DNA of 51,875 nt, taken from assembly GCA_902627635.1 (NCBI GenBank), contig CACOKA010000004.1, forward strand, positions 1 to 51,875, read 5' to 3'. The notes under the pieces were generated by a model. It was not told where the DNA came from and made no database searches. It saw nothing but the letters and a program-made list of their open reading frames with translations. Positions 10,600 through 15,321 of this stretch are shown piece after piece (the stretch's first letter is position 1; every line of letters starts with the position of its first letter). The DNA is from an uncultured Candidatus Actinomarina sp. Lineage in GTDB: Bacteria > Actinomycetota > Acidimicrobiia > Actinomarinales > Actinomarinaceae. A program made the translations under genes and the position numbers.

Positions 10600-10627
10600 T
10601 AGACAAGCAAATTATCGAAACTATTAT
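10600..10627 (+). promoter_or_regulatory. promoter of the cimA leader
   Basis: TAGACA (10600-10605; 5 of 6 match to TTGACA), a 16-bp spacer, and TATTAT (10622-10627; 5 of 6 match to TATAAT). The predicted start is at or next to the ATG at 10634, giving a leaderless transcript that begins with the leader peptide. Confidence 0.5.
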
Positions 10628-10633
10628 GAATTC

Positions 10634-10660
10634 ATGATTAATTTCATGATTATTATTTAA
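10634..10660 (+). CDS. putative isoleucine-rich leader peptide of cimA
   Basis: The 8-codon reading frame Met-Ile-Asn-Phe-Met-Ile-Ile-Ile then TAA; four of eight codons are ATT (Ile), three of them consecutive just before the stop. It begins 6 nt after a TATTAT -10 element and is followed 1 nt later by two hairpins and a T9 run before the citramalate synthase gene, whose pathway makes isoleucine. Stalling on Ile codons when Ile-tRNA is scarce is the classical attenuation signal. Caution: part of the Ile content comes from an exact direct repeat, TTCATGATTA at 10631-10640 and 10643-10652, which could instead be a paired operator. It is too short for coding statistics. Confidence 0.5.
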   Translation: MINFMIII

Positions 10661-10661
10661 G

Positions 10662-10709
10662 AACAACGAACTTATCGTTGTTACCCTTGCTTTGCAGGGG
10701 TTTTTTTTT
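10662..10709 (+). terminator. tandem hairpins with T9 tract: intrinsic terminator/attenuator before cimA
   Basis: Hairpin A has arms AACAACGA (10662-10669) and TCGTTGTT (10675-10682) with a 5-nt loop. Hairpin B has arms CCCTTGC (10684-10690) and GCAGGGG (10694-10700) with loop TTT and one G-T pair, followed by nine T (10701-10709). B plus T9 is a textbook intrinsic terminator. It ends 12 nt before the cimA ATG, leaving no room for a promoter between, so cimA expression should require read-through. I found no clear antiterminator pairing that shares strand B. Confidence 0.7.
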
Positions 10710-10721
10710 GGAAGAAGACGA

Positions 10722-12284
10722 ATGAAGATAGACATATTTGATACGACACTTAGAGATGGGTTTCAACAGGAGGGAATCTCCCCATCAGTAAAGGATAAAT
10801 TAGCTATTGCTAAGTTAATTGATGAGTTGGGTGTTGATTATATTGAAGGTGGATGGCCTGGAGCATCACCTAAGGAAAAAGAGTTTTTTGATAAAGCAAA
10901 AAAAGATTTAAAGCTTGAGAATGCAAAATTAGTTAGTTTTGGTTCTACTAGAAAATTAAATGTAAAAGTTGAAGACGATCCACAAGTACAGGCACTTATT
11001 GATTCTGAAACAGAGTATGTCTGTATTGTAGGTAAATCATCCAATCTCCACATTACAAAGGCTTTGGAGACTGATGTAGACAGTGCGATTCTAATGGCTA
11101 CAGACACCGTTAAATATCTAAAAGATAATGGACGAAAAGTATTTTTTGATGCAGAACATTTCTTTGATGGTTTGAAAGAGGATTCAGATACTACTTTGAA
11201 AATTTTAGATGCAGTAGTAAAAGAGGGCGTTGATTGTTTTATATTTTGTGACACCAACGGAGGAACACTTCCACATGAGGTCACAGATCTTTTAACTCCA
11301 ATTGTAGAAAAGTACCCCGATCAATCATTTGGCGTTCACTTTCAAAATGACAATGGATGTGCAGTTACAAACTCTTTGGCTGCAGTCAACCTTGGTGTGG
11401 AACATGTTCAAGGGACTATGAATGGTTATGGCGAGCGTACTGGTAATGCAGATCTTTGTACTCTTATTCCTAACCTCTCTTTAAAAATGGACTTTGAGAC
11501 AGTGCCTGAAGAGTCACTTGAAAAACTAACTCCTATAGCAAATCATATCGCGGAATTAGTAAATATCGCTATTGACTCAAGACATCCTTATGTTGGTTCA
11601 TCTGCCTTCACACATAAGGCAGGACTTCATGCTTCCGGTATGTCAAAAGACAATACTCTCTATGAGCACATAAATGCTAGTCAGGTAGGAAACTACACAA
11701 GAACTACTGTCTCTGAGTTAGCTGGAAGAGCAAGTGTAATTACTAAAGCAAAAGAATTTGGAATAGAACTTACAAATGATGATGCAAAAAATCTTATTGA
11801 GCAAGTACAAGATCTTGAATATCAAGGGTTTCAGTTTGAGGCTGCTGATGGTTCTTTATATTTATTAATGAAAAAGATCAAAGGAGAAGAGCCATCTTTT
11901 TTTGATTTTGAAAGCTTCAGAGTGTATTCCGAAAGAAGAAACTCTGAAAACGTTGTTTCAGAAGCTGTTTGTAAAATATCTGTAGGTGAAGAAAGATTCG
12001 TAACAACAGGAGAGGGAGTTGGTCCTGTCGATGCTTTAAATAAAGCTTTGAAATCTGCCTTGAATAAAAACTATCCGGATGTAGATAAGATTAAATTAAC
12101 TGACTATAAAGTGAGAATCATTGACTCTTCAGATGGTACTGAGGCAAAAACAAGAGTTCTCGTTGAATTTACAGATGGCGAGATAAATTGGAGCACTATT
12201 GGTGTTCACGAAAATATAATTAATGCATCATGGAATGCTCTATGTGATGGCTTTAATTATTATTTTATGGAAAGTTCATCATAA
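10722..12284 (+). CDS. cimA: (R)-citramalate synthase
   Basis: Condenses acetyl-CoA with pyruvate to citramalate, the entry to the threonine-independent isoleucine route. It is a 520-residue LeuA-like protein: the TIM-barrel start IFDTTLRDGFQQEGIS, GGWPGASPKE, FFDAEHFFDG, FCDTNGG, VHFQNDNGCAV, the metal and catalytic region GTMNGYGERTGNADL, SRHPYVGSSAFTHKAGLHASG, and a C-terminal regulatory domain (about 400-520) ending in VHENIINASWNAL. The GWPGASPK.. and DAEHFFDG wording is that of the CimA type rather than isopropylmalate synthase. The frame extends upstream to a TTG at 10692, but that lies inside the terminator hairpin, so ATG 10722 is the start. An upstream Ile-rich leader suggests control by isoleucine. 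Confidence 0.93.
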   Translation: MKIDIFDTTLRDGFQQEGISPSVKDKLAIAKLIDELGVDYIEGGWPGASPKEKEFFDKAKKDLKLENAKLVSFGSTRKLNVKVEDDPQVQALIDSETEYVCIVGKSSNLHITKALETDVDSAILMATDTVKYLKDNGRKVFFDAEHFFDGLKEDSDTTLKILDAVVKEGVDCFIFCDTNGGTLPHEVTDLLTPIVEKYPDQSFGVHFQNDNGCAVTNSLAAVNLGVEHVQGTMNGYGERTGNADLCTLIPNLSLKMDFETVPEESLEKLTPIANHIAELVNIAIDSRHPYVGSSAFTHKAGLHASGMSKDNTLYEHINASQVGNYTRTTVSELAGRASVITKAKEFGIELTNDDAKNLIEQVQDLEYQGFQFEAADGSLYLLMKKIKGEEPSFFDFESFRVYSERRNSENVVSEAVCKISVGEERFVTTGEGVGPVDALNKALKSALNKNYPDVDKIKLTDYKVRIIDSSDGTEAKTRVLVEFTDGEINWSTIGVHENIINASWNALCDGFNYYFMESSS

Positions 12285-14748: not shown

Positions 14749-14831
14749 TGCGGATGAGAGGACTCGAACCTCCACGAGCAAAGCTCACTAGATCCTAAAT
14801 CTAGCGCGTCTACCAGTTCCGCCACATCCGC
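14749..14831 (-). tRNA. tRNA-Leu(TAG)
   Basis: The minus strand folds as a cloverleaf with acceptor GCGGATG/CATCCGC, anticodon stem CTAGA/TCTAG around TTTAGGA (anticodon TAG), the long variable arm expected of class II tRNA-Leu, and T-loop TTCGAGT. The discriminator is A. The 3' CCA is not encoded. Confidence 0.95.
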
Positions 14832-14842
14832 TAAATGTCGCG

Positions 14843-14915
14843 TGGGTCGCCGGGGACTTGAACCCCGAACCTGCGGATTAAGAGTCCGTTGCTCTGCCAA
14901 TTGAGCTAGCGACCC
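14843..14915 (-). tRNA. tRNA-Lys(CTT)
   Basis: Minus strand: acceptor GGGTCGC/GCGACCC, D-arm AGCTCAATTGGCAGAGC, anticodon loop CTCTTAA (anticodon CTT) and T-loop TTCAAGT. CCA is not encoded. It is co-transcribed with tRNA-Leu, 11 bp apart, and divergent from the four plus-strand tRNAs. Confidence 0.95.
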
Positions 14916-15010
14916 TTTTTACAGATTAACTTAACTCATAATACTTAACTATAAATTTTTTGATTTATTGTTTCCATAAAAGCGTTATCATGGAACAATA
15001 ATTAGACGTG

Positions 15011-15085
15011 CGGGCTGTGGCTCAGCTTGGCTAGAGCGCCTGCTTTGGGAGCAGGAGGTCGTGAGTTCGAATCTCACCAGCCCGA
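15011..15085 (+). tRNA. tRNA-Pro(TGG)
   Basis: Acceptor CGGGCTG/CAGCCCG, anticodon stem CCTGC/GCAGG around TTTGGGA (anticodon TGG), T-loop TTCGAAT, discriminator A. First of a four-tRNA plus-strand array directly before tig. CCA is not encoded. Confidence 0.95.
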
Positions 15086-15090
15086 CTAGC

Positions 15091-15161
15091 GCGGGTGTAG
15101 CTTAATGGCAAAGCTCCAGCCTTCCAAGCTGGCTATGAGGGTTCGATTCCCTTCACCCGCT
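15091..15161 (+). tRNA. tRNA-Gly(TCC)
   Basis: Acceptor GCGGGTG/CACCCGC, anticodon stem CCAGC/GCTGG around CTTCCAA (anticodon TCC), T-loop TTCGATT. The discriminator T73 is usual for bacterial tRNA-Gly. CCA is not encoded. Confidence 0.95.
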
Positions 15162-15167
15162 CAAGAG

Positions 15168-15241
15168 GCTCTCGTAGCTCAAATGGATAGAGCAACAGAC
15201 TTCTAATCTGTAGGTTATAGGTTCGAGTCCTATCGAGAGCG
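15168..15241 (+). tRNA. tRNA-Arg(TCT)
   Basis: Acceptor GCTCTCG/CGAGAGC, anticodon stem ACAGA/TCTGT around CTTCTAA (anticodon TCT, reading AGA, a major Arg codon in these genes), T-loop TTCGAGT, discriminator G. CCA is not encoded. Confidence 0.95.
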
Positions 15242-15245
15242 CCGT

Positions 15246-15321
15246 GGTGATCGTAGCTCAGTTTGGTTAGAGCGCCTGGTTGTGGTCCAGGAGGTCGCGG
15301 GTTCGAATCCCGTCGGTCACC
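15246..15321 (+). tRNA. tRNA-His(GTG)
   Basis: Anticodon stem CCTGG/CCAGG around TTGTGGT (anticodon GTG). The acceptor GTGATCG/CGGTCAC carries an extra encoded G at -1 (15246) opposite C73 (15321), the identity feature of tRNA-His. CCA is not encoded. It lies 20 bp before the trigger factor start. Confidence 0.94.

Follow-up and report, generated by a model that had tools for sequence, protein, structure and literature searches.

Does the short spacer between rdgB and cimA in Candidatus Actinomarina (Acidimicrobiia) hold an attenuator that responds to isoleucine, and if so, by what means would translation of a leader peptide reach the terminator? The window (the whole stretch of 51,875 nucleotides that was analysed) is contig G000:C4 of a single-cell-type genome of 0.81 Mb that is 77% complete. 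The genes around the spacer run in the order aconitase, a pyridoxamine-oxidase-like gene (assigned by eye only), RNase PH, rdgB, the leader, cimA and acetyl-CoA ligase; a cluster of six tRNA genes, two on the minus strand and four on the plus strand, lies at 14749-15321. The cimA product scores 639 bits against TIGR00977 (cut-off 450), which bears out its earlier naming as citramalate synthase, the enzyme that opens the threonine-independent route to isoleucine. A search for the regulatory domain of threonine dehydratase (PF00585) returned no match in 39 Actinomarina genomes, with control genomes matching and with the limit that a dehydratase lacking this domain would escape it; cimA may therefore be the main entry and control point for isoleucine.

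Table 1. Features of the cimA leader unit and the gene downstream of it (positions in the window).
Feature	Position	Strand	Details
-35 element TAGACA	10600..10605	+	AGACA unchanged in all 19 aligned loci of the genus
-10 element TATTAT	10622..10627	+	16-nt spacer from the -35 element; transcription start predicted at 10634
Leader ORF MINFMIII-stop, predicted leaderless	10634..10660	+	Ile at codons 2, 6, 7 and 8; stop TAA at 10658-10660
Hairpin P1 (AACAACGA / TCGTTGTT, loop ACTTA)	10662..10682	+	Perfect 8 bp; arms 10662-10669 / 10675-10682; base 1 nt past the stop; proposed to act as an antiterminator by contact
Terminator hairpin T (ACCCTTGC / GCAGGGGT)	10683..10701	+	8 bp; arms 10683-10690 / 10694-10701; no linker to P1
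Nine-T run	10701..10709	+	Final part of the intrinsic terminator; nine T in all 19 rows of the genus cimA alignment
cimA, citramalate synthase	10722..12284	+	Regulated gene; TIGR00977, E = 4.8e-192

The preliminary description of this DNA had listed a promoter, an eight-codon isoleucine frame at the predicted transcription start, two hairpins, nine T and the cimA start codon, and we found every one of them in place (Table 1). The leader ATG begins 7 nt after the -10 element, with 6 nt intervening, and coincides with the predicted +1. This spacing is mostly 6-11 nt in the relatives (sister lineages have TAATAT as their -10 element), implying a 5' untranslated region of 0 to about 5 nt, and the leader transcript is thus predicted from its sequence to begin leaderless. 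Between the leader ORF and cimA lies an intrinsic terminator, as in ribosome-mediated amino-acid attenuators, and its T run ends 12 nt before the cimA ATG. The region from 10628 to 10724 folds with an energy of -27 kcal/mol (z = -5.15), a value reached by none of 200 shuffled sequences. The 10-nt direct repeat TTCATGATTA, which had been said to overlap the isoleucine run, is also present (copies at 10631-10640 and 10643-10652). Sister species lack it and carry ATA (Ile) instead of ATG as codon 5, and as a non-conserved feature it was rejected as a structural element.

To see which of these features are maintained, we compared the cimA loci of the genus. The complete unit, consisting of promoter, isoleucine leader, P1, T, nine T and cimA, is kept in all 22 full-length loci. 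The leader peptides themselves vary (MINFMIII in the window, and MINFIIII, MINFIIIT, MNIIIII, MNIIIIN, MKKIIIII and MKKIIIIV elsewhere), and only the isoleucine run and the stop are constant among them. In the 19-row genus alignment, 99.3% of the cells in P1 and T are paired, falling to 33-56% when the structure is slid by one to three columns. One P1 pair shows a double compensatory change, with A-U replaced by U-A or U-G in 10 rows out of 19, and the remaining variation in both stems is mostly one-sided (A-U to G-U). A comparative alignment had been proposed earlier as the check on the isoleucine codons and stems, and it finds the isoleucine run, the position of the stop, P1, T and the nine T conserved throughout the genus.

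This conservation does not depend on the neighbouring gene. The gene upstream is rdgB in the close relatives of the window, and among the loci read it is a different one in L005, L009 and L013-L022, where its 3' end holds the -35 element with the AGACA motif still intact. As the upstream gene differs while the unit stays, the leader unit travels independently of synteny. For the same reason the hairpins were ruled out as the terminator of the upstream gene, which changes between sister species while the unit persists. The alternative upstream frame is membrane-protein-like and often ends in FVRQ....

The layout of leader, P1 and T extends well beyond the genus, recurring before cimA in about 17-19 further Acidimicrobiia-type loci without sequence similarity, which agrees with the earlier expectation that related genomes would carry an isoleucine-rich frame and hairpins. 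The cimA genes of these GC-rich Acidimicrobiia are about 50-56% identical, and their leaders (for example MTTNPTWTIIIIE, MRPYDLGIIIR, MSANATFIIID and MKATSTAIIIID) stop one to two codons past the isoleucine run; a GC-rich P1 and a terminator come next in every case. Under a fixed rule, an isoleucine-run leader was found in 41 of 103 cimA upstream regions, compared with 0.72 in shuffled sets and none on the opposite strand; at these loci a short ORF rich in codons for the pathway product precedes the biosynthetic gene, as is usual for attenuators. Most of the other cimA loci sampled from the class have no recognisable isoleucine-run leader. Among 36 non-redundant isoleucine leaders, 34 have P1 (counted when at least 8 bp form at the stop) together with T within 4 nt, whereas shuffling only the DNA after the stop gave this combination in 0.1 leaders on average and in 2 at most. 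In all 34, the base of P1 lies from -1 to +2 nt relative to the stop and the linker from P1 to T is 0-4 nt long; the first isoleucine codon of the run stands 13-20 nt from P1. Two more loci (L048, L055) have the layout with a weaker isoleucine content.

A blind search of 296 genomes of the class with the pattern CATACT-N4..12-ATG-N6..36-ATH-ATH-ATH-NNN-TAG matched 26 sites. At 24 of these cimA comes immediately afterwards, starting about 75-135 nt downstream; the reversed pattern had no match in the same genomes. The shuffles, the strand control and the blind pattern search rule out a chance origin of the isoleucine frame. Taken together, conservation in the genus, recurrence across the class and the placing of the blind matches make it very probable, on comparative sequence evidence, that the unit before cimA is an isoleucine-responsive leader-peptide transcription attenuator. 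Covariance models of the Rfam leader families gave no match in the window or in the loci of 15 relatives. A SAM riboswitch (RF00162) lies near cimA in one Acidimicrobiia MAG (L049:1076-1160).

The layout is used at two amino-acid operons in the genus. We scanned the whole genome of a sister (G006, whose cimA is 99% identical) for a repetitive-codon leader with P1 at its stop and T abutting it, and only two sites had the full layout, one before cimA and the other before ilvB-ilvN-ilvC. The same geometry stands before ilvB in all 30 genus loci examined (L195-L224), including the copy in the window's own genome (L199, G000:C13, upstream of 15713). The ilvB leader is 15-16 codons long and rich in leucine and valine rather than isoleucine (MKKSVNLISLLVLVLM, or relatives such as MKNLAVFISVLVLLLI), and a TATAGT -10 element lies close to its ATG. 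Its TAG stop is followed directly by CGCTC(A)...GAGCG, then directly by CCTCCC...GGGAGG and a T run, so that both the gap from stop to P1 and the linker from P1 to T are 0 nt. The P1 and T of this unit are unrelated in sequence to those of cimA, the geometry alone being common to the two. In the ilvB leaders of the lineage closest to the window (L195-L199), the palindrome TACTAGTA occurs both in the leucine/valine codons and in the loop of P1, and leader and loop could therefore pair in that lineage only.

How the position of a ribosome on the leader might act on T was explored by calculating pairing probabilities for 39 leaders, with a ribosome footprint of the A-site plus 12 nt, for a ribosome at the first isoleucine codon of the run, for one at the stop and for the free transcript. 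The mean probability of P1 was 0.94, 0.00 and 0.94 in these three states, and that of T was 0.98, 0.96 and 0.98. On thermodynamics alone, T is present whichever state the ribosome is in, and folding energies therefore do not reveal the switch. No segment upstream paired into T in any of the 39 leaders, even with the pairs of T itself forbidden, and the strand shared by antiterminator and terminator in the classical trp-type attenuator was lacking in each of them. According to this model, ribosome position sets P1 cleanly, and base-pair competition between P1 and T is not conserved. The absence of such a shared strand, already remarked on for the window alone, thus holds across the relatives. 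Of the isoleucine leader-peptide attenuator originally suggested for cimA, the attenuator itself stands on its conservation and recurrence, and the classical trp-type switch does not. The evidence supports an attenuator of unusual mechanism, in which the usual overlapping antiterminator hairpin is absent.

On balance we consider a ribosome-mediated isoleucine attenuator of cimA with a step of steric contact to be the best explanation of the whole. Transcription would start at the leader ATG or within a few nucleotides of it, and a ribosome would load on the leaderless end. With ample Ile-tRNA, the ribosome would reach the stop, its front edge covering the 5' arm of P1; with P1 melted, T would form in the exit channel of RNA polymerase and transcription would end before cimA. 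Under a shortage of Ile-tRNA, the ribosome would instead stall on the isoleucine codons, and the 13-20 nt that separate the first of these from P1 are about the reach of its front edge. The front edge would then lie at the base of P1 or just short of it, so that P1 would be expected to stay folded. T must presumably close deep in the exit channel, with the RNA on its 5' side running along the channel; a folded P1 would obstruct this, blocking closure of the lower part of T and allowing read-through into cimA. Because P1 ends only 0-4 nt before T, the block is proposed to operate by contact and not by competing pairs. Blocking the exit channel does prevent terminator hairpins in the case of phage P7 (PMC6624301). 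A hairpin adjoining a terminator has also been described as aiding termination (PMC8355165), which counts against this reading, and no precedent for contact antitermination by a neighbouring RNA hairpin was found in the open-licence literature. We regard the case for P1 as a contact antiterminator acting on T as about evenly balanced. More tentatively still, the cimA (Ile) and ilvB (Leu/Val) units could represent an attenuator class, kept across Acidimicrobiia, that has no nucleotides common to antiterminator and terminator and in which P1, placed at the stop, acts on T by steric contact.

The main rival to contact is a short-overlap antiterminator such as that of Corynebacterium ilvBNC, in which P1 would run on through nucleotides of the stop codon (UAAGG with CCUU, for example), reach the 5' arm of T and compete with T by a few base pairs. 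Transcripts truncated before the 3' arm of T give this idea some footing: in 19 of the 39 leaders, one or more nucleotides of the 5' arm of T are then paired, and four (L007, L011, L015 and L061, three of them Actinomarina) capture 5 nt, so that a partial overlap may operate in these four. Pairing is possible in the ilvB leaders between the G of the TAG stop and T's first C, and the C. glutamicum antiterminator and terminator have a basal trinucleotide in common (PMC11857589). Yet the other 20 truncated leaders, including that of the window, pair no nucleotide of this arm, and some of the pairs in the 19 are not extensions of P1. The capture is moreover weak and gone once T is complete, no leader pairs into T even with T forbidden, and a linker of 1-4 nt separates the two stems in most of the GC-rich relatives. 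We therefore think a short overlap unlikely as the general mechanism, and the contact and overlap variants may form a continuum with overlaps from 0 to a few nucleotides.

Two further explanations leave P1 without a switching role. It might do no more than hold polymerase in a pause until the ribosome has caught up, with the real switch elsewhere (NusA/NusG, Rho or a protein on T). In favour of this, the promoter and the leader lie close together, and the trp-type scheme includes a hairpin downstream of the leader at which polymerase pauses. Hairpin H1 of C. glutamicum has been proposed to create such a pause (PMC11857589). A pure pause hairpin, however, needs neither a place at the stop nor a position abutting T, yet both hold in all 34 relatives, and we consider this explanation improbable. 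Finally, it is scarcely credible that the two hairpins make up a single composite terminator without regulation, shielding cimA for instance from transcription that enters from upstream, and that the isoleucine frame is incidental. Hairpin clusters are indeed common at terminators (PMC8355165), but the isoleucine run alone stays while the rest of the peptide turns over, the promoter lies upstream of T with no room for another before cimA, and the ilvB unit has leucine and valine in place of isoleucine.

Set beside known attenuators, the cimA unit combines familiar parts in a different arrangement. The E. coli trp, his and ilv leaders encode a peptide rich in the end product, with a terminator between it and the first structural gene, and use a 2:3 antiterminator whose strand 3 is common to the 3:4 terminator. 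The cimA unit has the same end-product-rich leader and terminator, and differs in that the shared-strand antiterminator was looked for and is absent. Canestrari and colleagues reportedly described, in 2020, leaderless poly-cysteine uORF attenuators of mycobacteria. There too, a short leaderless ORF controls a biosynthetic operon and has consecutive codons for the regulatory amino acid close to its stop. They are described, however, as attenuating translation and as having no obvious terminator (PMC13236596; PMC1262725), whereas the cimA unit has a strong intrinsic one.

Closer still is the ilvBNC attenuator of C. glutamicum (ilvB-II motif), also an actinobacterial branched-chain attenuator, whose leader peptide starts 1 nt from the transcript end and whose antiterminator hairpin, disturbed by the moving ribosome, lies just before an intrinsic terminator (PMC11857589, PMC10272879). 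That antiterminator, however, overlaps the leader codons and has a trinucleotide in common with the terminator, and the leader itself holds a third hairpin, H1 (PMC11857589, PMC10272879). In the cimA unit, P1 lies wholly past the sense codons and has no strand in common with T; the leader is specific for isoleucine and the regulated gene a different one. The ilvB1NC leader of M. tuberculosis similarly joins a uORF with branched-chain amino-acid codons to a Rho-independent terminator, and a ribosome masking about 26 nt at the stop has been proposed to prevent its antiterminator; it differs in its mutually exclusive terminator and antiterminator folds and its leader region of 166 nt, is not leaderless and does not concern cimA (PMC13236596).

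The cases given in the accessible part of an actinobacterial survey from 2005 concern trp, ilvB, cys and leuA, with none for cimA (PMC1262725), and no isoleucine-specific leader-peptide attenuator for cimA was found in the open-licence literature or in Rfam. The unit indicates that RNA-level control by amino acids survives in a very small, streamlined marine genome. Because P1 and T do not overlap, it also offers a clean, small system for testing whether contact with an adjacent hairpin can block a terminator; in attenuators whose stems overlap, this effect cannot be separated out. Isoleucine leaders ending in ...IIIRPLP-stop also occur upstream of cimA in two Nitriliruptorales / Nitriliruptoraceae MAGs (L101, L106). 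In L101, GGGAGCGG further downstream is able to pair with the leader's proline and leucine codons, giving a different layout with overlap into the leader.
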